From Streptomyces mexicanus (lineage in GTDB: Bacteria; Actinomycetota; Actinomycetes; Streptomycetales; Streptomycetaceae), in the NCBI RefSeq assembly GCF_902506575.1, contig NZ_LR732544.1, positions 1,386,330 through 1,450,329 of the forward strand: a stretch of DNA of 64,000 nt, in the 5' to 3' direction. The notes beneath the pieces are model-generated. The model was not told the origin of the DNA and did no database searches. It worked only from the letters and a program-made list of their open reading frames with translations. Position 1 is the first letter of the stretch. Each line of letters begins with the position of its first letter. The position numbers and the translations under genes are program-made. Below, piece by piece: positions 10,068 through 42,471 of this stretch.

Positions 10068-10075
10068 CGCGCGGC

Positions 10076-10638: not shown

Positions 10639-12207
10639 GTGAGCCGCCGACCGGATGTCGTCGTGGTCGGTGCCGGAGCCGCCGGTGCGGTGCTCGCGGC
10701 GCGTCTGACCGAGGATGCCGGCCGGCACGTGCTGCTCCTGGATGCGGGGCCCATACCGCGCGGCGCGGACGGATTCGGCCCCGCGCTGCTGGATGCCCGA
10801 CTGGTTCCGGGCGCACAGCCGAACCACCCCGCCACGACGGCCCATCCGGTACGTCTCACGCCGGAGCGACCGTGGCTGGTGACCCGCGGACGCATCCTCG
10901 GCGGCTCGACCACCGTGAACGGCGGCTACTTCATACGGGCCCGGCGTGAGGACTTCGACCGCTGGGCCGCCGCGGGCAATCCGGCCTGGGCCTACGACGC
11001 AGTGCTGCCGCTCCTGCGCACTCTGGAGAACGATCTCGACTTCGGTCCGAGCGAACTGCACGGTGATCAGGGACCGATGCGGATACGGCACCAGCGTATC
11101 GAGCACCCGGCGGCCGTCGCCTTCCGCGACGCCGCCCGGCGCCTCGGTTTTCCCGCCGAGCCCGACAAGAACGACCAGGCACCGCCCGGCTTCGGCCCCG
11201 TACCCTCCAACGCGGTCGACGGGGTACGCCACAACACCGGCCTCGCCTATCTGCCCCCCGAGATCCTCGACCGGCCCACCCTGACCGCCATCGGCGGCGG
11301 GCGGGCCCTCCGTGTCGTCATCAAGGACGGCCGTGCCACCGGGGTCGTCGTCGAACGCGACGGCCTGCGCACCACCGTCGACGCCGGCAGCGTCGTGCTC
11401 AGCACCGGCGCTCTGTCCACCCCGCATCTGCTGCAGCTCTCGGGGATCGGACCGCGCGCCGACCTCGAACGACTCGGCATACCCGTCATTCGTGACGCTC
11501 CCGCCGTCGGCGCCTGCTTCAGTGACCACCCGCAAGTCGTCCTCGACTGGACGCCCCACGAGGACATGGGTGACCCGGCCGAGTCCTGGCTCGGCGGCTG
11601 TCTCCACCTCGCCCACGCGGAAGGCGGCCTCGATCATGCCGGCATTCCAGGAGACCTGGAGGTCCTCCAGTCCCTGGTCCCCATGGCAGGGCTCGTCAGC
11701 GGTGCCGTGAGCGTCCCCGGAGCACCCCTGTCCTTCCTCGCCTCCGTCCAAACGCCCAGGCCGACAGGCCGGCTGCGCATCCGGGCGGCCGATCCCGGCA
11801 CGCCACCCGACATCGACTACAACTTCCTCAGCACTGCCGAGGACTTCTGCCGCCTGCGCCAGGTCGTCCGCGTCACCGCGGCCCTGATCGACACCCCACC
11901 CTTCGCCGACGTTTCCCACGGCCTGCTCGACCCCGGTCCCGAAGTACTGGACGACGATCGGGCCCTGAACCACTGGATTCGCGAACACGTCGGCACCGCC
12001 CAGCACACCTGCGGCACCGTGCCGATGGGACCCGCGGACGATCCCGGAGGCGGCGCCGTGGACCAGTTCGGGCGCGTCCACGGCGTGCGAGCCCTACGCG
12101 TCGCCGACACCTCGATCCTGCCCGACGCTCCGCAGCGGGGACCCGCGGCGACCGCTGTCCTGATCGGCGAGTTCATCGCCGATGCCATGCGTCGCGGCCT
12201 TGGGTGA
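10639..12207 (+). CDS. mftG: Mycofactocin system GMC oxidoreductase MftG
   Basis: Flavoprotein of the glucose-methanol-choline family that oxidises mycofactocinol and passes electrons toward the respiratory chain in mycobacteria. The 522-residue protein has the N-terminal FAD dinucleotide fold VVVVGAGAAGAVLAARL, the GMC signature region GRILGGSTTVNGGYF, the second GMC signature GALSTPHLLQLSGIGP, and the C-terminal segment with the active-site His of HTCGTVPMG followed by LRVADTSILP. I chose the GTG at 10639, directly before the FAD fold; the frame stays open to 10582. It is divergent from mftA and is followed by a degenerate fragment. Its presence makes the mft locus complete. Confidence 0.88.
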   Translation: MSRRPDVVVVGAGAAGAVLAARLTEDAGRHVLLLDAGPIPRGADGFGPALLDARLVPGAQPNHPATTAHPVRLTPERPWLVTRGRILGGSTTVNGGYFIRARREDFDRWAAAGNPAWAYDAVLPLLRTLENDLDFGPSELHGDQGPMRIRHQRIEHPAAVAFRDAARRLGFPAEPDKNDQAPPGFGPVPSNAVDGVRHNTGLAYLPPEILDRPTLTAIGGGRALRVVIKDGRATGVVVERDGLRTTVDAGSVVLSTGALSTPHLLQLSGIGPRADLERLGIPVIRDAPAVGACFSDHPQVVLDWTPHEDMGDPAESWLGGCLHLAHAEGGLDHAGIPGDLEVLQSLVPMAGLVSGAVSVPGAPLSFLASVQTPRPTGRLRIRAADPGTPPDIDYNFLSTAEDFCRLRQVVRVTAALIDTPPFADVSHGLLDPGPEVLDDDRALNHWIREHVGTAQHTCGTVPMGPADDPGGGAVDQFGRVHGVRALRVADTSILPDAPQRGPAATAVLIGEFIADAMRRGLG

Positions 12208-15358: not shown

Positions 15359-16204
15359 TCAGCGGCTGTCGGTCGCGCGCGACACCGCTTCCCATCGCGT
15401 GATCTCCTCGGCGCGGGCGAGGTAGGTGTCACGAACGGTGTCGACGGCGGTCCGTCCGATCACCAACCGGTCGGGGGGCGCCTTGGAGAGCAGGGCGGTG
15501 AGAATCGCCCGGGCCCCCAGCTCCGGCACTCCGGGCTGTGCCCCGTAGGCCTCGGCCGGCGAGTCCCGACGCCGCTCCACGGGGCCGTAGATGCCGAACC
15601 GGGCCTCAGTCTGGACGCGCGACCGCCCGAAGAAGTCGGTCCGGAAGGCCCCCGGCTCGACCACCATGACATGGACCCCGAAGGGCGCGAGCTCGTGGCG
15701 CAGGGAATCCGACCACCCCTCCAGCGCGTGCTTGCTCGCCGCGTAGTAGGCGGACCCCGGAGGTCCTTTCACCCCGCTCACCGATGAGAGGTTGACGACC
15801 GCACCGCGACGCCGGGCGCGCAGGCCGGCGACCAGCTGCCGGGTCAGCTCCGTCGGCCCGAAGAAGTTCGTCTCCATCACGAGGCGCCGCTCGTCCTCGC
15901 TCGTCTCCTCGACCGCGCCGAGCAGACCGAAGCCGGCGTTGTTGACGAGGACGTCGACCGGACCGAACTCTGTCTCGACCGTGGTGAGCAGTTCCTGGAA
16001 GGTCTGCGGCTTGGTGAGATCCAGTGCGGCCGGCAGGATGCGCTCGCTGCGGGGGAACCCGTTGAGCCTGCCGACGTCGCGGGCAGTGACCACGACCCTG
16101 TGGCCGCGGGTGACCAGCTCATGGGCGAGCGCCGCTCCCAAACCCGTCGACGCACCGGTGACGAGCCAGACACTGTCGTCACCGAGTCCGACCGCGGCAG
16201 CCAT
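15359..16204 (-). CDS. SDR family oxidoreductase
   Basis: Short-chain dehydrogenase/reductase of 281 residues that reduces or oxidises a carbonyl/alcohol with NAD(P). Motifs: cofactor-binding TGASTGLGAALA near residue 18, NNAGFG, the catalytic serine in NLSSVSG, and YYAASKHA with catalytic Tyr and Lys. The FFGPTEL and LRHELAPFGVHVMVVEPG segments are those of the group annotated as oxidoreductases acting on bulky ketones. The ATG at 16204 shares one base with the stop of the mycofactocin-coupled SDR upstream (TGATG), so the pair is co-translated. Substrate unknown. Confidence 0.8.
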   Translation of the reverse strand: MAAAVGLGDDSVWLVTGASTGLGAALAHELVTRGHRVVVTARDVGRLNGFPRSERILPAALDLTKPQTFQELLTTVETEFGPVDVLVNNAGFGLLGAVEETSEDERRLVMETNFFGPTELTRQLVAGLRARRRGAVVNLSSVSGVKGPPGSAYYAASKHALEGWSDSLRHELAPFGVHVMVVEPGAFRTDFFGRSRVQTEARFGIYGPVERRRDSPAEAYGAQPGVPELGARAILTALLSKAPPDRLVIGRTAVDTVRDTYLARAEEITRWEAVSRATDSR

Positions 16205-17064
16205 CACACGCCCGAGTAGGGTTCGAGCACAAGGCACCCGGCATCGACCTTGAGCTGCTGACCCGTCACCATGCGGGCCTCGTCCGAGGCGAGGAAGAGA
16301 ACGGCAGCGGAGATGTCCTCGGGCTGGACCATGGCGGTGTCCAGCACATGCATGCCTCGCATCGCGGGCTCGGCGTCGGCCAGGGTCGAATGAGGAGCGC
16401 CACCGGTGAACACCCCGTACATCATCTCGTTGAGCAGCATCGGGGTCGCCGTGTTGGTGGGGTGCACGGCGTTGACCCGGATGCCCTCGCGTCCGAGCTC
16501 GCGCGCCAACGAGTGGACCAGCGAGGAGACGGTGCGCTTGGCGAACCCGTACCCTGCACCGCCCGGCCCCGTGCCCGACTGATCGCTCTCCGCCCGACCG
16601 AGCCGAAGCCCCGCGACCGAACCGGTGACGATGACGGATCCTCCGGCGGTCAGATGAGGAACCGAGGCGGAGAGCGTGTTGACCACGCCGTTCAGGTTGA
16701 CCTGGACGACGTCCAGGAAAACCGCAGCAGGCTGCTTGCCCAGGGGCGAGATGCCCGCGTTCGCAACGACGACGTCGAGTCCTCCCAGCTCGTTCACCGC
16801 ACGATCCACCTCTGCGGTGAGCGCGGCGAGGTCACGTACATCGGTGCGGCTGGCGACGATCCGTCGACCCGTCGCCTGGACCTGAGCGACGGTCTCGGCA
16901 AGCTCAGCCGGCGTGCTCATGCTGTAAGGCACCGTGTCGATCTGCGCGGCGATGTCGACCGCGATGATGTCCGCGCCCTCCTGTGCGAGCCGGACCGCGT
17001 GCGAGCGCCCCTGTCCCCGAGCCGCGCCGGTAACGAGCGCGACCTTTCCCTCGACCCTGCCCAT
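16204..17064 (-). CDS. Mycofactocin-coupled SDR family oxidoreductase
   Basis: A 286-residue SDR with the signature of mycofactocin-dependent dehydrogenases, in which NAD(H) stays bound and mycofactocin re-oxidises it. Seen here: MGRVEGKVALVTGAARGQGR at the N-terminus, the continuation HAVRLAQEGADIIAVD, an insertion with IDTVPYSMSTP after the second beta strand, NAGISPLGK, and YGFAKRTV as the Tyr-x-x-x-Lys region. The ATG at 17064 has AAAGGAG eight bases upstream, better than the longer frame to 17121. It lies 7 kb from the mft locus and heads a two-gene operon. It is the strongest local candidate for a client enzyme of the cofactor; its alcohol substrate is unknown. Confidence 0.87.
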   Translation of the reverse strand: MGRVEGKVALVTGAARGQGRSHAVRLAQEGADIIAVDIAAQIDTVPYSMSTPAELAETVAQVQATGRRIVASRTDVRDLAALTAEVDRAVNELGGLDVVVANAGISPLGKQPAAVFLDVVQVNLNGVVNTLSASVPHLTAGGSVIVTGSVAGLRLGRAESDQSGTGPGGAGYGFAKRTVSSLVHSLARELGREGIRVNAVHPTNTATPMLLNEMMYGVFTGGAPHSTLADAEPAMRGMHVLDTAMVQPEDISAAVLFLASDEARMVTGQQLKVDAGCLVLEPYSGV

Positions 17065-17183
17065 CACTGGGCTCCTTTCGTTGTTCGGATGCGAGCGGTC
17101 CGACCACCTCCACGGAGCCATGCACGGGCCGTCGGTGAGACGGCACCCCAGGGCAGCGGCGCAGGTGGTGATATGAACGGTCG

Positions 17184-18314
17184 TCAGCCCACGAGGTCGT
17201 GAATCGCGTCACCGATCTCGCCGAACGGCGCCATTGCCTGCGGACCGAAGAAGCTTCGGTTGTGGAGGATCGCCACGGCAAGACCGCGATCGGGCTCTGC
17301 CCAGGCCACCGTGCCGCCGGCACCCGTGTGCGACAGGATCCCGTCCGTCAGCGCACCACCGGCACGGGAGTTGCTCACGCCGGGGGCGACGTGCCAGAGC
17401 CCGCCGTACCCGACCGGCAGGACATAGCCGTAGGTCTGGTCCGGCTCGAGCGGACGCGGTCGGCGGCACTGCTCGATGACCGCATCGCTCAGGAACTGCT
17501 CGCCGTCGACGCGCCCGCGCCCGGCGTACAGCGCGAAGAGCTTCGCGGTCGCCTTCGCCGTCGCTACCCCGCCCGCGGACGGCAGCCCTGCGGCCTGCAC
17601 CTCGGGAAGGTTGTAGAGGCTCGGACCGAAAGGCAGGTCCGGCGGCGAGGCCCTGGGCCCGAAGCCGGCCGGGTGGAGCAGTGGTGGCTCCTCCCCCGTG
17701 AGGATCGCGACGCGGCCGCGTTCCGACGCCGGAAGACCAAGATGGAAGTCGTGCGCACCGACCGGTTCCAGGACCTCCGCACGCACGAACTCCTGGAACG
17801 AACGCTTCCGCGCGTCCGTACGACGCACGAGCTCCCCGACGACGAAGCCGAACCCGTACGGGCTGTAGGCGTTCATCGTGTCCGGCGGTGCGACCGGTGG
17901 CTCGGCGGCGATGCCCGCGCACATCCACTCCCAGTCGAGCAGCTGCTGCACACTGGTGCCGGCCGGGATGGGGGGCGCTCCTGAGCGGTGGGCGAGAACG
18001 TGCTCCAGGGTGATGGAGTCCTTGCCGTGCTGCGCGTAGTCCGGCCAGACCTCGGCGACGGGCTGGTCGTACCGTAGCCGGCCTCGCTGGACCTGGAGAT
18101 GTGCGGCGGTCGCTGTCAGCGCCTTGGTCACCGAGAAGACCGGGAAGAGGGTGTCGCCCGTCACCTGGTCGCCCGACCCTGCTGAGGTTTCACCGGCCCA
18201 TGTGTCGACGACCAGCTGGTCGCCCAGACAGGCGGCGACTTGGACGCCGACCTCCCCCGCGGACAGGGCGGACTGCAGCGCAGCCTCGATCCGCGGGGTG
18301 GTGAGTCTGCTCAT
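17184..18314 (-). CDS. Serine hydrolase / esterase of the beta-lactamase class C fold
   Basis: A 376-residue soluble protein of the beta-lactamase/EstB esterase family. The Ser-x-x-Lys pair is SVTK (S61, K64) and the second-motif tyrosine is likely Y150 in NAYSPYGFG. Toward the C-terminus a HTGAGGTVAWA segment takes the place of the KTG box, common in esterases of this family. No signal peptide is visible, so it is probably a cytoplasmic esterase or lactonase rather than an antibiotic-resistance enzyme. It ends 119 bases before the mycofactocin-coupled SDR and starts 16 bases after livF, so it could be co-transcribed with the importer. In this island it might open a lactone or ester made by the Baeyer-Villiger enzyme; that is inference. 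Confidence 0.8.
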   Translation of the reverse strand: MSRLTTPRIEAALQSALSAGEVGVQVAACLGDQLVVDTWAGETSAGSGDQVTGDTLFPVFSVTKALTATAAHLQVQRGRLRYDQPVAEVWPDYAQHGKDSITLEHVLAHRSGAPPIPAGTSVQQLLDWEWMCAGIAAEPPVAPPDTMNAYSPYGFGFVVGELVRRTDARKRSFQEFVRAEVLEPVGAHDFHLGLPASERGRVAILTGEEPPLLHPAGFGPRASPPDLPFGPSLYNLPEVQAAGLPSAGGVATAKATAKLFALYAGRGRVDGEQFLSDAVIEQCRRPRPLEPDQTYGYVLPVGYGGLWHVAPGVSNSRAGGALTDGILSHTGAGGTVAWAEPDRGLAVAILHNRSFFGPQAMAPFGEIGDAIHDLVG

Positions 18315-18330: not shown

Positions 18331-19053
18331 TCAGAGGTAAAGCGCCTGGACCTCGTCCAGACGTGACTTGAGCTCGGTGGCCGTGCCTTCGAGCTCCAGT
18401 CGTCCGCGGCGGAGCACCACGCCGCGATGCGCGACCGAGAGCGCCTTCACGACCTGTTGCTCGACCAGGAGCACGCCGAGGTTCTCCTCCCGACAGGCGC
18501 GCTCCAGCACTTCGAGGATGCGATCGACGATCTTGGGTGCGAGGCCGAGCGAGAGCTCGTCGGCGAGCAGGATCTTGGGGCGGCGGGCGATCGCACGTGC
18601 CGCCGCGAGCATCTGCTGCTGGCCTCCGGACAGGAACCCGACCGTACGTCCCACGTGCTCCTCGAGCTCGGGGAAGTACTCCAGCGCCGCTTCCACGGTG
18701 ACGCCCCCTGCCCTGAGGTTGTCCCGCACGGTCATGCCCATGAAGACACAACGTTCCTGCGTCACCACCGCGAGACCTTGCCGGGCGCGCATCCGCATGG
18801 GTGCCGTGGTGACCTCGCCGTTGATCTCGACGTGCCCCGCATACGGCTTGAGCGCACCCGCGAGACCCATGATCGTCGTCGACTTGCCGGCGCCGTTGGC
18901 ACCGAGAACGGCGACGATCTCACCGCGCTTCACTTCCAGGTCGAGCTCGGTCACATACGGGAGGGAGCCGTACCCGAGCGAGAGGCCGCGGGCTGCGATG
19001 GCGAGCTCCGTCGCCGGCGTCGCGGGCGTCTTCTGGGCTGCGGTGGCGCTCAT
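18331..19053 (-). CDS. livF: Branched-chain-type ABC transporter ATP-binding protein LivF
   Basis: Second ATPase subunit of a Liv/HAAT-family importer. The 240-residue protein has Walker A GANGAGKST, the Q-loop region with VVTQERCVF, the ABC signature FLSGGQQQM, Walker B ILLADELSLGLAP and the short C-terminus of LivF. Its ATG overlaps the stop of the fused permease/ATPase gene (ATGA), so subunits are made together. The signature is intact, whereas the fused LivG-like domain has a divergent one. Several Liv-family systems import aromatic or terpenoid acids instead of amino acids, which fits the catabolic setting. Confidence 0.88.
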   Translation of the reverse strand: MSATAAQKTPATPATELAIAARGLSLGYGSLPYVTELDLEVKRGEIVAVLGANGAGKSTTIMGLAGALKPYAGHVEINGEVTTAPMRMRARQGLAVVTQERCVFMGMTVRDNLRAGGVTVEAALEYFPELEEHVGRTVGFLSGGQQQMLAAARAIARRPKILLADELSLGLAPKIVDRILEVLERACREENLGVLLVEQQVVKALSVAHRGVVLRRGRLELEGTATELKSRLDEVQALYL

Positions 19054-21812
19054 GCGCGGGTCTCCTTCTCGGCAGGCTTGACGGTGAGGGGCTGTGACTC
19101 GTCAGGTGCCGGTGCTCCGACCAGTCCCACGACTTCCGCCTCCGGCCCCACCGGAGCGTCGTCGACTTCCTCACCGAGGTAAGCCGCGACGACCGCCGGG
19201 TGGGAGCGGACCTGCTCGGGCGAACCGTGCGCGATGACGGATCCGAAGTTGAGCGCCGTGATCACGTCACTCACGCTCATCACCAGGTCGACGTCGTGCT
19301 CGATGATGAGGATGGCGATGCCGTACTCGTCCGCCATCCGCCGGACGAGGTCCTTGAGCTCGCTCGTCTCCACCTCGTCGAGGCCGGCGGCCGGTTCGTC
19401 CAGCAGGATGATGTCGGAGTTCGTCGCCATCGCCCGCGCGATGGCCACCAGCCGGCGCTTGGCGTAGTTGAGATCGGAGATCTTACGGCCGAGGTCGTCT
19501 TCGAGGCCGAGCAGTTCCACTGCGTCTCGTGCGGCGTCGCTCAGCGTCGGCGGATAGGGCCAGAAGAGGTCGCGGAACAGGTTGGCCTTGCGGTGGATCT
19601 CCGATGCGGCCTGCAGGTTGTCGAAGACGTTCAGGTCCTCGAAGAGCTCCAGACTCTGGAAGGAGCGGCCGAGGCCGAGCCGTGCCCGGCGCCAGGTGGA
19701 CTTGTCGTCGATCGGCGTGTCGTTGAGCGCCACGGAGCCGGACTGCGGCCTGACATAGCCACTGATGACGTCGAGCAGCGTGGTCTTGCCCGCACCGTTG
19801 GGTCCTATGAGGCCGTGGACCTGGCCCGGCTCGACCGTCAGGCTGACGTCCTTGAGCACATGCACGTTGCCGAACGACATGTTGATGCCGGTGACCGAGA
19901 GGCTCTTGCCGGCACGGGCCCGCCGCGCGCTGCTCTCCCGGGGTGGGAGCGTGATCGGCTTCAGTGACGTGCGCTTCTTCTGCCGTTCCTGGGACTGCGC
20001 GACCATGACGGACGCGACACCGTTCGGATTGAGGATCATCGTCAGGATGAGCAGCACACCACCGATCAGCGGCAGGTACTGGAAGTCCGCGCTGTAGACG
20101 GCGGCGGCGATCTCGGTCCCGAGCCCGCCGGGTGTGAAGCTCATCCCCAGCAGCGGGCCGGTCACGTACCCGACACCGCCGATGACCGTCCACACGAGCT
20201 GGTTGACCGACGAGAAGACGTCGAAATTGGTGTAGGTGACCGCCGAAGTGCGGTAGGCGATCAGCACACCTCCGACGGCCGCTATGAACGCCCCGAGCGA
20301 GAACGCGATCGCCTTCGCCATGCCGACCGGGATGCCGATGGACGTGGCGGCGCGCTCGTTGCCACGCGTGGCGATCAGGCGACGGCCGGTCTGACCGCGG
20401 CGGAGGTTCGCCAGAAACAGGGCGAGCAAGGCGAAGACGATGATCGCGAAGATCAGGTAGCGCCTCGGGTCGAGCAGGGCCGAAAGGTCGAGCCCGAAGA
20501 TCGACGGAGTGGGGATCATCACGACTTGCGAACGGCTGAAGACCGCGGCGAAGAGCAGCAGGTTGAAGGCGAGCGTGACGATCGCCAGGCTCACACCCCG
20601 CATCCGCATGGCGGGAAGAGCCAGGAGGAAGCCGATCGGGACGGCTCCGACCGCCGCGATCAGCAGGATGATGAGGAACGGGATGCCCGGGTTGCGGGAC
20701 GCGATCTCCGAAGCGATCACCGCCCCTACGCCTGCCATCGCGAACTGCGCCATCGAGAGCTGGCCGGCATACCCCGTCACCAGCACGACGGAGAGCATCA
20801 CGATCGCGACGAGCAACGACACCAGCAGCGCCTGGTTCCACTCGACCGGCAGCACGAACCACACCAACGCGATGGCGACCACCAGTGTCGGCACCACCAA
20901 CTGCCAGCGCACCCGGCCGGAACCGAGGCTCGGGAGGCGCGCGCCGATGTAGCCCCGCGACGCGATCCCCTGACCGTGCAGCACCATCAGGAGGACGACG
21001 ATGACGAACGTCGACATCGCACCCGCACCGCGCACGTCGACGTGGGCGCTGACGACCGACTGCAGGAGGACGATCCCCATGCCCCCGAGTACCGTCAGCG
21101 GGAACGACACCAGGCTGCCGGCCAGAGCGGCACCGAGAGCCGGCACGATCAGGTTGCTCATCGTGACCAGGTCGAGGCCGCTCACGGGAGCGAGCAACGC
21201 CCCCGCGAGACCCGCGAGCGAGCCGCCGAGGAACCAGTTGCCGATGGCCAGGCGTTCGGCGTTGTGACCGAGCGCGGCGGCGGCGGTCGGATTTTCGGCC
21301 ACCGCCGCCGTGGCGGTGCCGAAGTTCGTGAACCGGTAGACGGCCCACAGCCCGAGCGCCACGACCACCGCGATCGCGATCAGCAGCAGCCGGTCGACGC
21401 CGATGGCCTTGTCACCCCACAAAGACACCCGGTCGGTCGGCAGAAGCGAGGGCGCGTTGCGACCGTCCGCGCCGTACACCACCTGCAGCACCGACTGCAC
21501 CACCACCAGCACGCCGAGCGAGCCGATCAGGCGGGCGAGCGGCGACGCGTCGCGCAGCGGGCGCATGACGAGGATTTGGGCCAGGACGCCGACCAGACCG
21601 GACACCAGGATGGCGGCCACCAGGGCGAGGATCTTCGGTACCCCGGCTCGTGTGGCCAGGTCCCAGTAGACGAAACCTCCGAGCGAGGCCATTGAGGCGT
21701 GCCCGAGGTTGAGGACACCGGTGCCCCGATAGACGAGCACGATGCCCAGCGCCAGGAGTCCCAGCATGGCACCCGGCCCCAAGGAAAGGATGCCGATGAA
21801 TATCGTCTCCAT
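19050..21812 (-). CDS. Fused ABC importer protein: LivH permease - LivM permease - LivG ATPase
   Basis: A single 920-residue polypeptide contains three importer subunits normally made separately. Residues about 1-290 are a LivH-type permease (GILSLGPGAMLGLLALGIVL, then LNLGHASM). About 310-620 are a LivM-type permease (TGYAGQLSMAQFAMAGVGA). About 655-890 are a LivG-type ATPase with Walker A GPNGAGKTT near residue 667, Walker B IILLDEPAAGLD, and LNYAKRRLVAIARAM in place of a canonical LSGGQ. No frameshift or internal start is evident, so the fusion looks real. The ATG at 21812 is preceded by GAAGGGG; the frame runs open to 21890. Substrate-binding proteins likely to serve it are at 48.3 and 51.0 kb. 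One copy of the recurrent 15-bp element lies 83 bases upstream. Confidence 0.87.
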   Translation of the reverse strand: METIFIGILSLGPGAMLGLLALGIVLVYRGTGVLNLGHASMASLGGFVYWDLATRAGVPKILALVAAILVSGLVGVLAQILVMRPLRDASPLARLIGSLGVLVVVQSVLQVVYGADGRNAPSLLPTDRVSLWGDKAIGVDRLLLIAIAVVVALGLWAVYRFTNFGTATAAVAENPTAAAALGHNAERLAIGNWFLGGSLAGLAGALLAPVSGLDLVTMSNLIVPALGAALAGSLVSFPLTVLGGMGIVLLQSVVSAHVDVRGAGAMSTFVIVVLLMVLHGQGIASRGYIGARLPSLGSGRVRWQLVVPTLVVAIALVWFVLPVEWNQALLVSLLVAIVMLSVVLVTGYAGQLSMAQFAMAGVGAVIASEIASRNPGIPFLIILLIAAVGAVPIGFLLALPAMRMRGVSLAIVTLAFNLLLFAAVFSRSQVVMIPTPSIFGLDLSALLDPRRYLIFAIIVFALLALFLANLRRGQTGRRLIATRGNERAATSIGIPVGMAKAIAFSLGAFIAAVGGVLIAYRTSAVTYTNFDVFSSVNQLVWTVIGGVGYVTGPLLGMSFTPGGLGTEIAAAVYSADFQYLPLIGGVLLILTMILNPNGVASVMVAQSQERQKKRTSLKPITLPPRESSARRARAGKSLSVTGINMSFGNVHVLKDVSLTVEPGQVHGLIGPNGAGKTTLLDVISGYVRPQSGSVALNDTPIDDKSTWRRARLGLGRSFQSLELFEDLNVFDNLQAASEIHRKANLFRDLFWPYPPTLSDAARDAVELLGLEDDLGRKISDLNYAKRRLVAIARAMATNSDIILLDEPAAGLDEVETSELKDLVRRMADEYGIAILIIEHDVDLVMSVSDVITALNFGSVIAHGSPEQVRSHPAVVAAYLGEEVDDAPVGPEAEVVGLVGAPAPDESQPLTVKPAEKETRA

Positions 21813-21894
21813 GAGTCGACCCCTTCTCGGGAGTGAGACGTTCCGACGGCCTCGAGGCCGGAGTGACCCAGGGCACGCAGTAACCGGCAAATTA

Positions 21895-21909
21895 ATTAGA
21901 TGATTCGAC
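21895..21909 (+). promoter_or_regulatory. Recurrent 15-bp element, copy 1 (importer)
   Basis: ATTAGATGATTCGAC, 83 bases upstream of the LivHMG fusion gene. It matches the shared pattern GTTANATNATTNNNC except for the first base. The whole site sits in a short AT-rich island. Confidence 0.55.
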
Positions 21910-22391: not shown

Positions 22392-23177
22392 TCAAACCAG
22401 CACTGTGCCGCCGTTCACGCGAAGGATCTGACCTGTCAGCGCCGCACCGGCATCCGAGGCGAGGTACAGCGCGGCGTGCGCGATCTCCTGCGCATCGACG
22501 ATCCTGTTCAACGGTGACGTCGAAGCGCGGTCGTTGACGCGGTCGGTGAATCGGGCCTCGTCCAGCGCCCCGTCCTCGCGGACATAGTCCTGCTGCGTGA
22601 TCCCGCTGACCACCCAGCCGGGCGCGATTCCGGCGACGCGGATGCCGAGCCCACCGAGCTCGACCGCGAAAGCGCGCGTCAGCTGCTGCACACCGCCCTT
22701 CGACGCCGCGTATGACGCCCGCTCGGTGCTCGGCCGGTCGATGATGGCCGAGGCCATGTTGATGATGACCCCACCCCTCTTCATCGCCCGCGCCGCGGCC
22801 TGACATCCGTAGAAGACGCCGTGGAGGTTCACCGCCAGCACCTTCTGGAACTCCTCAGGCGTGATGTCGAGGACCGGCCGGCGGATCAGGATCCCGGCGT
22901 TGTTGCACATGATGTCGAGTGCGCCGAACTCCTCGACGGCCCGTGCCACCAGGGCCGTCACCTGGTCGGCATCACTCACGTCCACCCCGTGCGAGAGCGC
23001 GGTGCCGCCGCCGTCGGCGACCTCCTTCGCGACGCGCTGCGCCCCCTCGGCGTCCAGGTCGGCGCAAACAACCTTGGCGCCCGCCGCCGCGTACGTCGTC
23101 GCGATCGCCTTACCGATGCCGCTGGCGGCCCCGGTGACGACCGCGACCTTCCCTTCGAGCTGGAAGACGCCCGCCAT
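22392..23177 (-). CDS. SDR family dehydrogenase in the P450 operon
   Basis: A 261-residue NAD(P)-dependent SDR: GxxxGxG in TGAASGIGKAIA, NNAGIL, catalytic serine in NMASAI, and SYAASKGGV with Tyr and Lys. It is the last gene of the minus-strand operon oxocamphor-hydrolase-like / P450 / ferredoxin / SDR; its ATG shares one base with the ferredoxin stop. By analogy with the Rhodococcus camphor route (P450 hydroxylation, dehydrogenation to a beta-diketone, then hydrolytic ring opening), this enzyme is the natural candidate to oxidise the P450 product to the diketone. The role is inferred from context. Confidence 0.82.
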   Translation of the reverse strand: MAGVFQLEGKVAVVTGAASGIGKAIATTYAAAGAKVVCADLDAEGAQRVAKEVADGGGTALSHGVDVSDADQVTALVARAVEEFGALDIMCNNAGILIRRPVLDITPEEFQKVLAVNLHGVFYGCQAAARAMKRGGVIINMASAIIDRPSTERASYAASKGGVQQLTRAFAVELGGLGIRVAGIAPGWVVSGITQQDYVREDGALDEARFTDRVNDRASTSPLNRIVDAQEIAHAALYLASDAGAALTGQILRVNGGTVLV

Positions 23178-23368
23178 CAGCGGACAACCGTGATGACGCG
23201 CTCCGGGCACGAGGCGGCGGCGACCTCGGCGTCGTCCTCGAGCGCGGGCGGCACGTCGAACCCGTCGGTGTCGATGTAGCCGTCCTCGTCCAGCACGAAA
23301 AGCTCCGGGACGATGGCGTTGCAGCGGGCGTGACCCTCACACCTGGGCCGGTCGATCTCGATCTTCAT
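23177..23368 (-). CDS. Ferredoxin, [3Fe-4S] type, P450 electron donor
   Basis: A 63-residue acidic ferredoxin with three cluster cysteines: C10 and C16 in CEGHARC, and C54 in SCPE. The residue that would be the second ligand of a 4Fe cluster is absent, as in the 3Fe-4S ferredoxins that feed actinobacterial P450s. It lies 18 bases downstream of the P450 gene and overlaps the SDR start by one base. No ferredoxin reductase is encoded nearby, so a reductase from elsewhere is needed. This could also serve the second P450 at 51.9 kb, which has no ferredoxin neighbour. Confidence 0.88.
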   Translation of the reverse strand: MKIEIDRPRCEGHARCNAIVPELFVLDEDGYIDTDGFDVPPALEDDAEVAAASCPERVITVVR

Positions 23369-23386
23369 GAGTCAATCCTCTTCTGG

Positions 23387-24595
23387 TCAGCCGAGCTTGA
23401 GGGGGAGGTGCTTGATCGCCATGTTGGTCCCGCCCCACATGTCGATGACGGCTCCGTCGGCGACGGTGTACTCGGGAATCTTCTTGTGCCAGAGCTCGAG
23501 CGCGATGCCGAGCTCGAGCCGTGCGAGGTGCGACCCGAGGCAGCGGTGCGGTCCCATGCCGAACGCGGAGTGGCGCGGAGCGGCACGATCGAAGTCGACG
23601 ACGTCGTGCCTGTCGTTCTCCGACGGGGACCGGGAAACGAGCGAGTTGCACAGCAGGATGCGGTCTCCGGCCCTCATGTCGACGCCGGCGAAGTGGACGT
23701 CCTGGGTCACCCGGCGCGCGATGTTGGTGAAGGAGAAGTAGCGCAGCAGTTCCTCCACGGCCTTCGGAGCGCTCTCCGGATCCGCCGCGAGCTTGGCGCG
23801 GTGCTCCGGGCTGCGGGCCAGGAAGTTGAACGCGAAGGTCGTACCGGCGGTCACCGTCTCCAGACCGGCCAGGAAGAACAGGAAGGTGATTCCGACGACC
23901 GTGTCGGGGTCGAGTGGCACGCCGTCGACCTCGGTGGCGAGCATTTCACTGATCCAGTCGTCCTGCGGGTTCGCCGCCCGTTCGGCGACCAGCTTGCGCA
24001 GAAAGTCGCCGACCTCGTGGTTGGCGCGCTGTTTGTCCTCACCGAGCGCGTGCAGGAGCGTGTTGTTCCACTCGACGAAAAGGTCGGCGTTCTCCAACGG
24101 GAGTCCGAGCCGGGCCATGAAGATGCGCGTGGGCAGCGGCACGGCGAAGTCGTCGACCAGGTCGATGGAGTCCTTGCCGCTGGCCTCGTCCACGAGTTCT
24201 GCGGCGAGCTTGCGGATGCCGTCCTCGAGCTCCTTGACCCGTCGCGGGGAGAACATGCCCGAGACCGCTCGCCGGTACTTCGTGTGGTCCGGCGGGTCGA
24301 GCTCTTCGGGGATCATCGGCGGCGCCCCCTCCCGCACCGGCAGGCCACCGGGATAGTTCGAGAACACATCCGGCCGCTGATACGCCTCACGTATGTCTTC
24401 TGCACGCGTCGGCACCCAGAACCCGCCCCAGGCCGTACTGAAGATCACGCGCTGGTCACGGAACCGCTCGAGGTACTCGAACGGCTCCGCCAGGAACTCG
24501 GGGTCGGTGTGGTGGTCGAAGTCCCGGAGCAGCTCCACCGGGACGTGATCCGGGCGCACGGGTTCCGGGAGAGCAGCCGCTCCTGCGTAGCTCAT
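23387..24595 (-). CDS. Cytochrome P450, camphor-hydroxylase-like
   Basis: A 402-residue soluble bacterial P450. Heme-binding loop FGMGPHRCLG with the Cys ligand at residue 352, I-helix LAGLETVT (acid-Thr pair present), and ExxR in the EELLRY region. The N-terminal segment GGFWVPTRAEDIREAY followed by MIPEELDPPDH resembles, from memory, P450cam and its relatives more than steroid or fatty-acid P450s. AGGAGGAG lies seven bases before the ATG at 24595. It sits between a ferredoxin and a 6-oxocamphor-hydrolase-like gene, the arrangement expected for hydroxylation of a bicyclic ketone. Substrate is inferred. Confidence 0.88.
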   Translation of the reverse strand: MSYAGAAALPEPVRPDHVPVELLRDFDHHTDPEFLAEPFEYLERFRDQRVIFSTAWGGFWVPTRAEDIREAYQRPDVFSNYPGGLPVREGAPPMIPEELDPPDHTKYRRAVSGMFSPRRVKELEDGIRKLAAELVDEASGKDSIDLVDDFAVPLPTRIFMARLGLPLENADLFVEWNNTLLHALGEDKQRANHEVGDFLRKLVAERAANPQDDWISEMLATEVDGVPLDPDTVVGITFLFFLAGLETVTAGTTFAFNFLARSPEHRAKLAADPESAPKAVEELLRYFSFTNIARRVTQDVHFAGVDMRAGDRILLCNSLVSRSPSENDRHDVVDFDRAAPRHSAFGMGPHRCLGSHLARLELGIALELWHKKIPEYTVADGAVIDMWGGTNMAIKHLPLKLG

Positions 24596-24606
24596 GTCTT
24601 CTCCTC

Positions 24607-25392
24607 CTAAAGTGCGGTGCTCTTCCCCGCCAGCCGGCGGAGACGCACGTTGTCCAGTCCGGCAAGGGCCTCCAGGGCGAGACCGAAGGGGAGCTGCTCG
24701 TCGATCAACCGCTTGTACCGCTGGGTGAGGACGACGCGGGAGTACCGGGCCGCCAGCGGGTTGAGGGCCGCCAGCGCACGCGCGTGCTCGTAGGCCCGGT
24801 CCATCAGCTTCTCCGGTGCCAGCACCTCCGCCACCACGCCCAACTGCTTGGCCTCGGCTGCCGAGAGGGTCTGCCCGGTGAGCAGGAAGTACCGGCCCCG
24901 GTTCATCCCCAGCAACTCCTGCCAGACGATGTGGACACCGTCGCCCGGCACCGAGCCGCTCGGCACATGTGCCTTGTCCTGGAACGTGGCCGTTTCCGAG
25001 GCGAGCACGATGTCGGACATGACGGCGAGCTCCGCATGCACGGTCGCCGGCCCGTTCACCGCCGCGATGACGGGGACCTCGATGTCGAGGAGCCGGCGCA
25101 GCAAGTGCTTGCCCTCGTAGATGATCTGATCCCACATCTGAGGATCGACCGTCGGCCGGTCCCAGGCATAGTCGTCGATGAAGGAGTCGCCCGTGCCGGT
25201 CAGGATGACGACGCGGTTCTCCCTGTCCTCGGCGATGTCGAGGAACGCACGGCTCCAGTCGGTGTGGTGTTGCGGGCTGTAGGCGACCGGCCCATCACCG
25301 TCTTTCGCCCTGAACCTGAGGAGGAGGATACCGTCCGCGTCACGCGACATCGCGAACGTGGGGTAACTGTCGAAATAGTCAGGTTTGCCCAT
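24607..25392 (-). CDS. Crotonase-fold beta-diketone hydrolase, 6-oxocamphor hydrolase-like
   Basis: A 261-residue crotonase-family protein resembling 6-oxocamphor hydrolase (OCH, CamK) of Rhodococcus, which opens a bicyclic beta-diketone by retro-Claisen C-C cleavage. Shared segments include RENRVVILTGTG, IEVPVIAAVNGP, VMSDIVLA and NRGRYFLLTGQ. Residues corresponding to the OCH catalytic set are present: H119, H142, D151 and E241 (OCH H122, H145, D154, E244, a constant offset). The pocket residues W40 and F82 of OCH appear as Tyr and probably Pro, so the substrate may differ. Comparison is from memory. The ATG at 25392 has GAGAGGG upstream. It is the first gene of the P450-ferredoxin-SDR operon, and a copy of the 15-bp element lies 23 bases before the start. 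Confidence 0.78.
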   Translation of the reverse strand: MGKPDYFDSYPTFAMSRDADGILLLRFRAKDGDGPVAYSPQHHTDWSRAFLDIAEDRENRVVILTGTGDSFIDDYAWDRPTVDPQMWDQIIYEGKHLLRRLLDIEVPVIAAVNGPATVHAELAVMSDIVLASETATFQDKAHVPSGSVPGDGVHIVWQELLGMNRGRYFLLTGQTLSAAEAKQLGVVAEVLAPEKLMDRAYEHARALAALNPLAARYSRVVLTQRYKRLIDEQLPFGLALEALAGLDNVRLRRLAGKSTAL

Positions 25393-25414
25393 GTTCGGCC
25401 CTCTCGACCAATTA

Positions 25415-25429
25415 GTTAGATCAATAAGA
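25415..25429 (+). promoter_or_regulatory. Recurrent 15-bp element, copy 2 (P450 operon)
   Basis: GTTAGATCAATAAGA, 23 bases upstream of the oxocamphor-hydrolase-like start, in an AT-rich stretch (25410-25433). The position would overlap the core promoter. Confidence 0.55.
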
Positions 25430-25513: not shown

Positions 25514-26434
25514 TCACCCGACGAGAGGGAAGACCTCTTCGGCGACCCAGCGCAGCCGATCGAGGTACTCCTCGATGCTGTCGGTCTTGGTGAGCGGCGC
25601 CGACACCTCCGTCACTCCGAGCTCACCGAGCCAGTGGATCCGCTCCGCGATGCAGTCGGCGTTCCACCCGCTCAGGTTGTGCTCCGATGTCTTGGCGACG
25701 TGGTTGAGGCCGAGCTCGAGGTTGAGCAGGTTGTAGTAGATCTCGATCGGCCGACCCTGGTAGTGGCGGCTGGAGGTGATCCGGTCGATCTGCTCGGGGA
25801 ACCGCTCCAACGGCGTCTGGTACGGCGACCACCCGCTCCCCCACCGGGCGACCCGCTCCATCACAGCCGGAGCGTCGCCGGCGAACCACAGCGGCGGGTA
25901 CGGCTTCTGCGTCGGCTTCGGATCCGAGCCCACTCCTTCGAAGGAGACGAACTCACCGTGGTAGCTCGCGCTCGTGTTCGTCCAGATTTCGATCATCGCC
26001 TCGACGTACTCGTCGACGATCCGGCCCCGCTTGCGAAAGTCGACCCCGAGGATGTCGAACTCCTCCTTCAGCCAGCCCACGCCGATGTTGATGTCGGCGC
26101 GGCCACCGCTCACCCAGTCGAGGACGGCCCACATCTTCGCCTGGACGATCGGGTTCTGCAGGGCGAGAAGCGTGATGTTCGACCCGACCCGCATCCTGGG
26201 CGTGCACGCTGCGAGGTATCCGAGGATGGTGGTCGCCTGCATGTAATGAGTGCCGGAGTCGGCGACGTGGTTGTGGGGAATCGCCAGGTGCTCGCCCACC
26301 GTGACCTTGTGGTAGCCGAGCTCGTCCGCGGTGGCGAGGATGCGTTGGAACTCGGGTCCGCCGAGCTTTCGCATCCAGGGGTAGGTGATCGCGGCGACCT
26401 GTTGGTTGTTCGGGAGCGAAAGGTTGAACTTCAT
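25514..26434 (-). CDS. LLM class (luciferase-like) F420- or flavin-dependent oxidoreductase
   Basis: A 306-residue TIM-barrel of the bacterial luciferase-like superfamily. Visible landmarks: MKFNLSLPNN start, VGEHLAIPHN, a SGGRADINIGVGW segment and PYPPLWFAGD followed by ARWGSGW, typical of the F420-dependent TIGR03619-like group. A two-component flavin monooxygenase role, including type II Baeyer-Villiger chemistry on camphor-like ketones, is possible, but no flavin reductase lies nearby. The ATG at 26434 follows GGAGGAACAAGG. Coenzyme and substrate are unresolved. Confidence 0.75.
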   Translation of the reverse strand: MKFNLSLPNNQQVAAITYPWMRKLGGPEFQRILATADELGYHKVTVGEHLAIPHNHVADSGTHYMQATTILGYLAACTPRMRVGSNITLLALQNPIVQAKMWAVLDWVSGGRADINIGVGWLKEEFDILGVDFRKRGRIVDEYVEAMIEIWTNTSASYHGEFVSFEGVGSDPKPTQKPYPPLWFAGDAPAVMERVARWGSGWSPYQTPLERFPEQIDRITSSRHYQGRPIEIYYNLLNLELGLNHVAKTSEHNLSGWNADCIAERIHWLGELGVTEVSAPLTKTDSIEEYLDRLRWVAEEVFPLVG

Positions 26435-26763
26435 CCTTGTTCCTCCACGTGGATCACGTCGCAAGTGGTGTTCGCGGCATCTTGGCGAAGGCGGCGAACA
26501 CCCGCGGTACACGCCGGGACTCGTCGGGCGCCAGGAATCCGTGAGAAGGACGCCCGCACCTGCCCGGGTGCGCGATCACGTCTGCGCCGGCGGCCACACC
26601 GCCAGGGGCGGCGCCACAGACACCGAGGTGGAGCACCGGCCCGACGGCCCGGCGGGGTCTCCGGCCACGTCCATCGCGGCCGGCCGACGCCACATGGTGG
26701 GAAGTTCGCGAGCAACTCACGGAACCGCCTGGCCAGACCGGCCCTTCAGGTCGGCCCCGTCCG
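26435..26763. other. Intergenic region, no feature seen
   Basis: About 330 GC-rich bases between the LLM oxidoreductase start and the stop of the next crotonase, all on the minus strand. It should hold the LLM gene promoter, but I see no clear promoter, operator copy or gene. Confidence 0.4.
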
Positions 26764-27558
26764 TCAGCGGAAACGTGGAGTCGGCTTCACCGCGACGGCC
26801 CGCGCGGCCGAACGGATGCCCTCCGGGCTCCCGATCTGGGTGTAGGCGAGTCCTTGCGCCATGGCGACCGAACGCCCGTGGTCCAGCGACTCCCAGACCG
26901 CACGCACCGTACCCTGCACCGCCTCAGGCGGGTTCTTCGCGATCGCCGCGGCGATCTCGCGGGCGCGCTCCCAGAGCTTCGTCGGTGCCACGGTCTCCGA
27001 CACAAGCCCGATCCGCAGCGCGGTGTCGGCGGTGACTCGTTCCTCGAGTCCCATCAGCGCGATGCGCAGGGCCTCGCCGAGCGGAATGCGCCGTGAGAGT
27101 CCGATGGGCTCGAGCGAAGCCACCATCCCGTACGAGACGTGCGGATCGAAGAAGGTGGCGTCTTCGGCACAGATCACCACATCGCTCTCGTTGATCCAGT
27201 AGAAGGCGCCACCCGCGGCCATGCCGTTCACCGCGGCGACGACAGGCTTCCAGCATTTGTTGGCCTTCGGCCCGAGCCGGTCGCCGGGGTCGACCTGCGA
27301 CCACTTGTTGGCCGGCTTCACGATCCCCTGCTTCACGTCGACGCCGGTGCAAAAGGCTCGGTCACCTTGAGCCCGAAGGACGACGGCACGGACGTCGTCG
27401 TCGAGCCTCACCTCCTGCCAGAACCGGGCGAACTCGTCGCACATCTGCTGGTTGAACGAGTTCATCGCCTCCGGCCGGTTGAGCGTGATGGTGGCGACAT
27501 GGTCCTCGCCGTGCTCGACCAGCACCGTCTCATAGCCGTGGGTCGACAGCACGGTCAC
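26764..27558 (-). CDS. Enoyl-CoA hydratase/isomerase family protein
   Basis: A 264-residue crotonase. The CoA-binding/oxyanion segments are FCTGVDVKQG and NGMAAGGAFYW; TLNRPEAMNSF is the family N-terminal motif. In the usual catalytic-Glu region it reads FDPHVSYGMVASLEP, without the common PGGGG loop, so the reaction may not be simple hydration. The GTG start at 27558 overlaps the stop of the preceding crotonase (GTGA), making it the last of a three-gene operon: isochorismatase-like, crotonase, crotonase. It presumably acts on a CoA intermediate of the island; substrate unknown. Confidence 0.78.
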   Translation of the reverse strand: MTVLSTHGYETVLVEHGEDHVATITLNRPEAMNSFNQQMCDEFARFWQEVRLDDDVRAVVLRAQGDRAFCTGVDVKQGIVKPANKWSQVDPGDRLGPKANKCWKPVVAAVNGMAAGGAFYWINESDVVICAEDATFFDPHVSYGMVASLEPIGLSRRIPLGEALRIALMGLEERVTADTALRIGLVSETVAPTKLWERAREIAAAIAKNPPEAVQGTVRAVWESLDHGRSVAMAQGLAYTQIGSPEGIRSAARAVAVKPTPRFR

Positions 27559-28337
27559 TCCTCCCCTGCGGGCACAGGCCTGCGCCCCGTCAGCTGTGCC
27601 GTGGCCTCGAGGAACTCCTCGCCGACGAGCAACTGTCCCTGTTGTGCCCCCATCACCGCCAGCTCGCTGTCGAGGCCGACGTGGAGGTAGCGTCTCAAGG
27701 ACGCCTTCGTCCGCGCGAGTGCCAGCCTGGGGAGGTCCGCGAGCGACTCCGCGACCTCGGTTGCCCGAGCGGCAAGATCCTCCTCGGCCACTTCGCCCAC
27801 GAGCCCGCAGGCGAGCGCCGATGCGGCGTCGAGCCGTTGCCCGAGCAGGAGCATCTGCGCGGCACGGGCACCGCCGACCAGCGCCGGCAGGTGGTGCGCG
27901 CCCCCCATGCCGGGAACCAGGCCGGCTTTGATCCAGGTACTCTCGAACAACGCGTCAGGAGCAGCGATCCGCAGGTCGCAGCAGAGCGCGAGATCGAGCC
28001 CCGCGCCGAACGCCGGCCCCGACACTGCCGCGATCGCCGGAAGCGGCGAGTCCCGCAAGGCGCGCACCAGCCCATGGAAGCTGGTGTAGATCGCGTCCGT
28101 GGCGACGGCACTGCCCTGCGAGGCGAGTGCCGAGAGGGACGGCAGGTCGCCCCCGGCGCAGAACGCGGGCGGGGTTCCGGTGAGGACGATGCTCCGCATG
28201 CCGGCTTCCTCGGCCCCGCGGACGGCGGCCACCAGTGCGTCCACGACCTCTACGGTGAGCGCGTTGCGCCGCTTCGGGCGGTTAATGGTGATTTCGCGAT
28301 GCCGTTCGACATCACGCACCAGCACCTCTGCGCTCAT
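27555..28337 (-). CDS. Enoyl-CoA hydratase/isomerase family protein
   Basis: A 260-residue crotonase with INRPKRRNALT, FCAGGDLPSL for the first oxyanion strand and SGPAFGAGLDLALCCDLRI for the second. The region ESTWIKAGLVPGMGG carries an acidic residue and the glycine loop of hydratases. The ATG at 28337 overlaps the stop of the isochorismatase-like gene and its own stop overlaps the next crotonase start, so the three are translated together. It is a likely hydratase for one of the acyl-CoA dehydrogenase products here. Confidence 0.8.
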   Translation of the reverse strand: MSAEVLVRDVERHREITINRPKRRNALTVEVVDALVAAVRGAEEAGMRSIVLTGTPPAFCAGGDLPSLSALASQGSAVATDAIYTSFHGLVRALRDSPLPAIAAVSGPAFGAGLDLALCCDLRIAAPDALFESTWIKAGLVPGMGGAHHLPALVGGARAAQMLLLGQRLDAASALACGLVGEVAEEDLAARATEVAESLADLPRLALARTKASLRRYLHVGLDSELAVMGAQQGQLLVGEEFLEATAQLTGRRPVPAGEE

Positions 28338-29032: not shown

Positions 29033-29851
29033 TCACTCGAAGAGGTCGACGATCTCCTTCGCCTGCGCCGCGCCGGCCAGGATCTTGCCTGCGGTGCTCA
29101 TGTGCGCGCGCCAGTGCTCTTGGGCACCGGTCACGTCCTTCTCCTCGATGAACTTCACGAGCCGTGCGTAGGAGCGGACCGACTTGCGAAGCGTCGTGAG
29201 GGTCGGCGGCTTCGACCAGCTCTGGTTGAGCTGCGATGCCATGTGGGTGTCGGTGACGTCGCAGAGGACACCCCACTGGACCTTGAGGGCACGGTTGCCG
29301 GCCCGCTCGACGACCTGCTCGTGGAAGCTCCGGGAAAGTCCCGCCCACCGCAGCTGGTCCGCCGACGCCGCCGGTTTCGCCTCAGCGATCGCCGAGGTCA
29401 GTTCGTCCAGCTCGTCGACGATACGGGTGAGCTCGGCGACATCGGCCCGCGTCCGGCGCTGAGCCAGCATGCCGGCGGCGATCGGCTCCATCAGCGCACG
29501 AGCCTCGTACACCTCACCGATCGTCGTGCCCTCCATCTGCAGGAGCAGTCCGACATACCGAGCCGCGACACCGAGGCTGGGCGCCATGACCTGAGCACCG
29601 CCGCGCGAACCGCGTCGGACGCTGATCAGCGACTCCGCCTCCAGGATGCGGAACGCCTCGCGCAGCGTGGGCCGCGAGACGCCGAACTGCTGCATCAGGT
29701 CGATCTCGGAAGGCAGCGTGTCACCTTCCTTCAGCTCGCGCGACACGATCTGCCGGCGGATGTTCGACGCGATGATCTCCGCAGTCTTCGGGACTCGGGC
29801 CCGGGCGAACTGGGGAGACACCGGATCGGCCGGCTGAGCGGCATAGGTCAC
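29033..29851 (-). CDS. GntR family regulator, FCD (FadR-like) subfamily
   Basis: A 272-residue regulator. The N-terminal winged helix reads DTLPSEIDLMQQFGVSRPTL followed by REAFRILEAESLI, a classical GntR pattern; the C-terminal all-helical FCD domain has the acidic/histidine ligand region (EARALMEPIA, SFHEQVVERAGN, HWRAHM) that binds a metal and a carboxylate-type ligand in relatives. The GTG at 29851 has GAGGAG six bases upstream, preferred over a start at 29887. It is divergent from the MaoC-like gene. It is the only transcription factor between 15 and 64 kb, so it is the leading candidate to bind the recurrent 15-bp element. Confidence 0.87.
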   Translation of the reverse strand: MTYAAQPADPVSPQFARARVPKTAEIIASNIRRQIVSRELKEGDTLPSEIDLMQQFGVSRPTLREAFRILEAESLISVRRGSRGGAQVMAPSLGVAARYVGLLLQMEGTTIGEVYEARALMEPIAAGMLAQRRTRADVAELTRIVDELDELTSAIAEAKPAASADQLRWAGLSRSFHEQVVERAGNRALKVQWGVLCDVTDTHMASQLNQSWSKPPTLTTLRKSVRSYARLVKFIEEKDVTGAQEHWRAHMSTAGKILAGAAQAKEIVDLFE

Positions 29852-29963
29852 AACGACTCCTCGGGACTTGGCGCATCCAAAACGCAATCGTACGACTCAT
29901 TGACCCGTACCCGCGACTCGATGCACCGCGCCGTCGCGGCTTACATCAAAGACCTCCCTCTAT

Positions 29964-42436: not shown

Positions 42437-42471
42437 TCGTCCGCCCCTGTCCGACCGGGTCTTCACTATCG

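Follow-up and report, generated by a model that had tools for sequence, protein, structure and literature searches.

Does an operon that encodes the enzyme classes of camphor oxidation belong to a camphor pathway, or has the same chemistry been put together for another ketone? The question is raised by a four-gene run in Streptomyces mexicanus (RefSeq assembly GCF_902506575.1), within a 64,000-nucleotide stretch of contig NZ_LR732544.1 (positions 1,386,330 to 1,450,329, forward strand) that we call the window and number from its first letter. The run lies on the minus strand from 25392 to 22392 and encodes, in this order, a beta-diketone hydrolase, a cytochrome P450, a ferredoxin and a short-chain dehydrogenase/reductase (SDR). 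An earlier interpretation by a model that saw only the letters and open reading frames (the sequence-only reading) had named the genes in this same order, with which coordinates and Pfam families agree, and had likened them to the 6-oxocamphor route of Rhodococcus. With a probability of roughly 0.6 we read the operon as a catabolic oxidise-and-cut module (P450, SDR and retro-Claisen hydrolase) for a cyclic ketone. Its substrate would probably be not camphor but another terpenoid-like cyclic ketone. Pathways of this kind have been described for camphor; the new elements are the clade to which the hydrolase belongs, the P450 that accompanies it and the shared motif.

Operon structure and hydrolase family

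The hydrolase gene (24607..25392, 261 aa) is followed after 11 nt by the P450 gene (23387..24595, 402 aa, heme motif FGMGPHRCLG), after a further 18 nt by the ferredoxin gene (23177..23368, 63 aa, motif CEGHARC...CPE), and then, through a TGATG stop/start overlap, by the SDR gene (22392..23177, 261 aa, motifs TGAASGIG and YAASK), all on the minus strand. By this anatomy the four co-directional genes are one predicted transcription unit. The hydrolase starts at the ATG at 25392, not at 25429, and the bases up to 25429 are upstream sequence.

The top PDB sequence matches of the hydrolase are 6-oxocamphor hydrolase of Rhodococcus (OCH; 1o8u, also 1szo; 238 bits, 52% identity) and ABDH of Anabaena (alr4455; 2j5g, also 2j5s; 235 bits, 48% identity), with a hydratase next at 82 bits; no other PDB match in the lists has a name that states this ring-opening activity. 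PMC3584854 gives the catalytic residues of ABDH as H43, H144, D153 and E243, which, with the numbering checked, map onto H43, H142, D151 and E241 of the window hydrolase. In the alignment H43, H119, H142, D151 and E241 are invariant relative to both enzymes (the OCH counterparts are H45, H122, H145, D154 and E244), which bears out the earlier claim that H119, H142, D151 and E241 are kept and adds H43 to the set. An AlphaFold2 model built from 25 related rows (mean predicted local distance difference test score 89.7) leads to the same relatives: ABDH and OCH chains take the first 12 places in the Foldseek search (E 3.6e-28 or better), ABDH being the top match, and hydratases come next at 1.3e-17, a result that speaks to fold and not to specificity. 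The general Pfam ECH_1 model also matches, at 91 bits. Identity as an ordinary enoyl-CoA hydratase is rejected on the PDB scores and the order of the fold search. By sequence and modelled fold the protein is an OCH/ABDH-type member of the crotonase superfamily, and on this point the sequence-only reading is supported.

Such membership still leaves room for a hydrolase that acts on a coenzyme A (CoA) thioester in beta-oxidation, with the P450 operon working earlier on the same compound. The crotonase fold is common to CoA enzymes, BadI and EchA20 open rings in or hydrate CoA thioesters, and the hydrolase is surrounded by ligases, acyl-CoA dehydrogenases and a pair of crotonases of the ordinary kind. 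Its by far nearest relatives are nevertheless OCH and ABDH, with which it shares the active-site His/Asp/Glu set, and a title cited in PMC3584854 describes ABDH as CoA-independent. We therefore regard a BadI-, EchA20- or hydratase-like role as unlikely, and retain cleavage of a free cyclic diketone.

The gene is the sole OCH-type match in its genome (579.6 bits for the protein itself, 55.6 for the next), so the operon hydrolase is not a chance match. It is also rare: a match at E 1e-40 occurs in 9 of 394 genomes of the host's family, and at E 1e-50 in 13 of 394 genomes of a class sample, the host's own genome being included in both counts. The best identity outside that genome is 61%, to a protein from a Verrucomicrobiaceae metagenome-assembled genome (MAG; locus L017). 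A contig scan by two narrow peptide patterns returned 57 loci, none titled as an actinobacterium, and so missed relatives in that group.

A separate clade with changes at putative pocket positions

For phylogeny we used 85 rows, two of them outgroup; the fragments L101 and L071 were excluded, as was L009, which duplicates the window protein. OCH falls in a clade of 12 rows with support of 98 in the Shimodaira-Hasegawa-like approximate likelihood ratio test (SH-aLRT), and ABDH groups mainly with rows from cyanobacteria, together with a few others. The window hydrolase belongs to neither, and stands in a five-row clade (SH-aLRT 97) with L017, a Sphingobium TKS plasmid protein (L117), and L111 and L113, two proteins of the same genome. 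(The L113 hydrolase, around position 9612 of its locus, belongs to a genome with three OCH-type genes.) An approximately unbiased (AU) test, for which the window protein was added to the OCH clade as it appears in the tree, rejects their grouping together (p-AU 0.003).

Two residues divide in the same way. W40 and F82 of OCH, which we take to be pocket positions, are Trp and Phe in 12 of 12 OCH-clade rows. In the clade of the window hydrolase, W40 is replaced by Tyr in five of five rows (Y38 in the window protein; hence the Tyr clade), and Phe at F82 occurs in none of the five; ABDH differs again, with Phe at the Tyr38 position. The segment GPVxYSxxHHxxW is common to three of the five rows, L111 and L113 deviating in part. 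The sequence-only reading had reported both changes, Trp to Tyr and Phe to Pro. Its first stands as given; of the second, the loss of Phe holds, and the Pro depends on the alignment, since the loop differs in length and F82 pairs with P80 in phmmer and with R79 in MAFFT. In short, the protein shares with OCH the crotonase fold, half of its residues and the catalytic set, and by tree, AU test and W40/F82 lies outside 6-oxocamphor hydrolase proper. Clade and pocket both favour the earlier suggestion that the substrate may be other than camphor, though they give no support to a bicyclic monoterpenoid in particular.

The P450 and its redox partners

The P450 has the CYP101 camphor hydroxylases as its top PDB matches, at identities of 33.7% to CYP101D1 and 34.5% to P450cam. 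By CYP nomenclature, members of one family share more than about 40% identity, which places the operon P450 outside CYP101. Its nearest relatives in the class sample, 47-49% identical, are found in four genomes (L162-L165), all of one family, where the P450 recurs in a cluster with a ferredoxin, a GntR regulator, an acyl-CoA dehydrogenase, a crotonase and a mycofactocin SDR in four of four stretches, and with a MaoC-like protein in three. The likeness to the window extends to these partners (crotonase 56-60% identical, acyl-CoA dehydrogenase 48-51%, mycofactocin SDR 48-52%, ferredoxin 43%, GntR 36-39%), whereas none of the four stretches holds an OCH-type hydrolase match. The P450 and its partner genes thus resemble a recurring cluster, which the hydrolase seems to have joined here. 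With a P450 only 34% identical to CYP101, whose closest relatives sit in hydrolase-free clusters, the module seems to have been built separately from the camphor operon. A simple camphor operon by descent is rejected on the P450 identity, the hydrolase clade, the AU test and the pocket residues, and P450 divergence and hydrolase clade likewise leave close kinship to the Rhodococcus camphor operon unsupported.

The same recurrence allows a more sceptical interpretation, in which the P450 and ferredoxin derive from an acyl-CoA-type cluster like those of L162-L165 and the hydrolase was joined to them by rearrangement, to be co-transcribed without sharing a substrate. Seven neighbouring families (P450, ferredoxin, GntR, acyl-CoA dehydrogenase, crotonase, mycofactocin SDR and MaoC-like) do recur without the hydrolase in four genomes. 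Against such an accident stand the tight 11-nt spacing between hydrolase and P450 genes, the one operator-like site upstream of the run and the fitting chemistry of its products, and we consider it very improbable in comparison with a module in which all four proteins would serve one ketone.

The ferredoxin matches the Pfam single-cluster 4Fe-4S domain Fer4_15 (PF13459, 55.5 bits) and carries the motif CxxHxxC...CP, which is usually taken to indicate a 3Fe-4S cluster. It has four PDB matches; the best is 4id8, a 'putative ferredoxin' (49.5 bits), and in two of the remaining three the matched chain includes a P450 as well. It is likely the redox partner of the operon P450. The SDR matches Pfam and NF005559 (227 bits, cut-off 215) and lies outside the mycofactocin-coupled class (TIGR03971, 175 bits against a cut-off of 300).

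Recurrence of the gene set

P450 genes were sought at 83 OCH-type loci with six P450 queries in flanks of at most about 10 kb, often shorter, so that the counts are lower bounds. Matches were found at 13 of the 83, some of them weak or at contig edges, among them six of 11 OCH-clade loci (L022, L029, a contig-edge fragment, L104, L106, L112 and L116); the cyanobacterial homologues of ABDH gave no P450 match within the flanks searched. The P450s at OCH-clade loci are only 30-34% identical to that of the operon, and because of this low identity it seems that P450, alcohol oxidation and retro-Claisen hydrolase were combined on more than one occasion. The alternative would be a single module that has diverged over a long time.

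Two loci allow closer comparison. A Rhodocyclaceae MAG (L022) has all four functions encoded close together and on one strand, in the order reductase-P450-hydrolase-ferredoxin-SDR. It differs in having the P450 ahead of the hydrolase and an added reductase, in SDR and P450 sequence (31% and 34% identical) and in a hydrolase that belongs to the OCH clade. The plasmid of Rhodococcus sp. 008 (L116), like the window, holds an OCH-type gene (here of the OCH clade), a ferredoxin, a P450, an SDR, a ligase and beta-oxidation genes, but its ferredoxin-P450-SDR block is on the opposite strand, about 4.5-6.8 kb from the hydrolase gene, with identities to the window of 33% for the P450 and 44% for the hydrolase. 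Of the camphor operon of Rhodococcus NCIMB 9784 itself, the searches returned the hydrolase, as a PDB chain, but not the operon.

These comparisons also bear on whether the operon, whatever its descent, carries out the true camphor pathway, in which the P450 would form 6-endo-hydroxycamphor, the SDR 2,6-bornanedione and the hydrolase alpha-campholinic acid. The enzyme classes are the same, half of the hydrolase residues match OCH, and camphor hydroxylases head the P450 matches. Set against this are the exclusion from the OCH clade (AU p 0.003), the change of W40 to Tyr and the loss of F82 (all 12 OCH-clade rows retain the two residues), the mere 34% identity to CYP101, and the fact that the P450s found beside OCH-clade genes are different ones. 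A camphor function is, on balance, quite unlikely, and another cyclic ketone is preferred. In PMC4097962 the section on camphor covers the Pseudomonas route.

Other arrangements were seen among the loci. On a Paraburkholderia sprentiae plasmid (L120, 5102-9960), genes for a P450, a GMC oxidoreductase, an OCH-type hydrolase and an EstA-type serine hydrolase are consecutive, a possible variant with another alcohol oxidase. In two SAR202/Dehalococcoidia MAGs (L033, 5178-8975; L037, 10001-13600), an OCH-type hydrolase, a luciferase-like oxidoreductase and a P450 lie close together.

A shared operator-like motif

An operator-like site, ATCTAACTAATT (25410..25421, minus strand), lies 18 nt before the hydrolase ATG, and a second, ATCTAATTAATT (21890..21901, minus), lies before a Liv-type importer; the motif core ATCTAAYTAATT was read off these two. 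Allowing up to two mismatches, the core occurs four times in the window, whereas shuffled sequences average 0.10 occurrences and none of 100 reaches four. The two further sites, ATCTAACTCAAT (45555..45566, minus; two mismatches) before a Baeyer-Villiger monooxygenase (BVMO) and ATCTAACTAGTT (53193..53204, minus; one mismatch) before a second P450, were unused in defining the core and so are the independent ones. Across the 7.93 Mb genome the exact core is present only at the two sites from which it was defined. When each site is left out in turn and scored against all window positions except the training sites, the ranks are 2, 1, 4 and 2. A pattern extended from all four sites gives 14 genome matches, nine of them within 82 kb (G000:C17:1408219-1490136); four of these nine are exact by construction, and of the 10 other matches five fall in that 1% of the genome. 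The common motif lends support to the earlier proposal that the hydrolase operon, the importer and the BVMO belong to one regulon.

As regulator of the motif, the GntR protein encoded within the window was considered and rejected: its own divergent promoter holds no good match, the best score listed being 9.7. A TetR gene just beyond the window (G000:C17:1450566-1451195; PF00440, 26.9 bits) has in its divergent promoter a site that scores 19.6, and because of this difference TetR is the better candidate. Weaker operator-like sites lie upstream of or between P450 genes beyond the window (G000:C17:1466120-1467406, 1478002-1479255 and 1479372-1480760; L138-L139).

The position of the motif also helps to separate catabolism from biosynthesis. 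With 36 P450 matches in the genome, some of them pieces of one gene, the operon could conceivably tailor a home-made terpenoid or polyketide instead of degrading an imported compound. The motif, however, stands before a Liv importer, Liv binding proteins lie behind another of the sites, and the CoA ligase, thiolase and four acyl-CoA dehydrogenases of the window make up a set of catabolic character (no search for terpene synthases was made). Tailoring is the explanation to which we give the least credence, and a catabolic module is favoured.

Surrounding genes

The importer (19050..21812, minus strand) comprises permease parts (PF02653, two stretches, 158 bits) and a LivG-like ATPase (PF00005, PF12399; the LivG model scores 217 bits, below its cut-off of 362). 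It is a single 920-residue frame, an apparent permease/ATPase fusion. On the same strand are a LivF-like ATPase (18331..19053; PF00005, UrtE 164 and LivF 139 bits, both below cut-offs), a beta-lactamase-fold serine hydrolase, possibly an esterase or lactonase (17184..18314; PF00144, 220 bits), and, near the importer, a mycofactocin-coupled SDR (16204..17121; TIGR03971, 333 bits, cut-off 300). To the other side of the operon, again on the minus strand, lie an F420/FMN luciferase-like oxidoreductase (25514..26437; TIGR03619, 198 bits, cut-off 166.9), an enoyl-CoA hydratase-like crotonase-family protein (26764..27558), 56-60% identical to its homologues in L162-L165, a second crotonase-family protein (27555..28337), the GntR/FCD regulator (29033..29887) and an AMP-binding acyl-CoA ligase (40886..42466).

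The BVMO (45607..47409, plus strand) lies 20 kb from the hydrolase operon and is of type I, its fingerprint FKGHAFHTSRW (FxGxxxHxxxW) standing between two Rossmann motifs, GxGxx(G/A), from residues 63 and 239. Its best PDB match is 5mq6 (370 bits), which we take to be a fungal polycyclic ketone monooxygenase under a different PDB label, followed by phenylacetone monooxygenase (266 bits). Because of this best match the substrate may be bulky, larger than a monoterpenoid, although the likeness to 5mq6 concerns the BVMO only and not the hydrolase operon. The name 'polycyclic ketone monooxygenase' occurs in PMC9552169, there without a PDB code. A second BVMO-like protein of the region has the fingerprint FRGATYHTGQW. 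Further along lie a full-length Liv-type periplasmic binding protein (48272..49654, minus; PF13458) and the second P450 (51890..53125, minus; best PDB matches 2z36 compactin hydroxylase, CYP105AS1). Between these two, at 50976-51686, a 236-residue Liv-type binding protein has a partial domain match and is perhaps truncated. The window also holds four acyl-CoA dehydrogenases, a thiolase and a CoA ligase, and the wider region has acyl-CoA ligases, a thiolase and a reductase of a type that supplies electrons to P450 ferredoxins.

Profile searches identified mftD, mftC, mftB and an MftG-like GMC oxidoreductase (the last just below cut-off) at 7228..12207. The mycofactocin locus as a whole (3271-12207) adjoins the catabolic region and has an MftR-like TetR gene at 4207-4884. 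GC content is 0.66-0.71 in blocks of the window and 0.69-0.70 in the right flank (60 kb), against 0.74 in the left flank, so that the lower-GC region spans at least 120 kb, its right edge lying beyond the stretch examined. There is no tRNA gene in the window and one, tRNA-Thr (L140:19603-19678), in the 80 kb of flanks scanned; a tRNA-bounded island was considered on this basis and is not proven. This tRNA-Thr gene lies close to the distal limit of the scanned flank and is a possible integration site. Between 20000 and 31000, no RNA element matched Rfam at the gathering threshold.

Proposed pathway and points against it

The gene classes agree with the earlier proposal of hydroxylation, oxidation and hydrolysis of a C-C bond. 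In the pathway that we propose, the P450, supplied by a reductase from another locus via the ferredoxin of the operon, would hydroxylate a cyclic ketone at the position 1,3 to the carbonyl, and the SDR would oxidise the hydroxyketone to a cyclic beta-diketone. In the crotonase-fold hydrolase, activated water would attack one carbonyl and the C-C bond would be cleaved in a retro-Claisen reaction to give a keto-acid, which nearby CoA ligase and beta-oxidation enzymes could then degrade. Substrate entry and a parallel Baeyer-Villiger step may be coordinated through the shared operator. The analysis shows gene content and order, the family of the hydrolase, its conserved catalytic residues, a predicted fold and the common motif; from these we infer the reactions and the order in which they occur, the class of substrate and a regulator that acts on the motif.

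Several observations weigh against this reading. The joint chemistry is read from one operon, because the nearest P450s sit without an OCH-type gene. No P450 match was found at 70 of the 83 OCH-type loci within the flanks searched, nor at any of the four other Tyr-clade loci, so there is no general association of the Tyr clade with P450s. The operon has no ferredoxin reductase, the nearest one identified being about 53 kb away (L138:13581-14822), and the SDR could run in the reductive direction. The tree comes from a quick search with SH-aLRT support only and has long branches. Tyr at the W40 column is found also in L103, which is not in the Tyr clade, and L113, which is, has Tyr where the catalytic His145 stands, so that members of the clade may differ in function. 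For the motif there is some circularity, since two of the four sites defined the core; the lower GC of the region raises the number of chance matches; and the 14 genome matches of the extended pattern are hardly above the 12 of a reversed-pattern control, only their crowding being notable.

A broader proposal takes in the whole lower-GC region of at least 120 kb as one regulon with its own operator and perhaps a TetR repressor, in which import of a bulky polycyclic terpenoid-like ketone, two modes of ring opening, by P450 with retro-Claisen hydrolysis and by Baeyer-Villiger oxidation, mycofactocin-linked alcohol oxidation and a hydrolase of the Tyr type would make up an undescribed degradation pathway. 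We advance it tentatively, as a possibility more doubtful than the oxidise-and-cut module itself. We found no description of such an operon in the literature, which is weak evidence, as most subscription papers fall outside the coverage of the search; within the same limited coverage, nothing was found that joins mycofactocin with terpene and P450, or with monoterpene.

Implications

To our knowledge, the natural substrate of most members of the OCH/ABDH family is open. A hydrolase of a third clade, in an operon with a likely P450, ferredoxin and SDR and with an importer tied to it by a motif, would offer a direct route to a new natural substrate. OCH-like enzymes break prochiral diketones asymmetrically, and a new diketone-hydrolase specificity, if true, would be of interest for biocatalysis.

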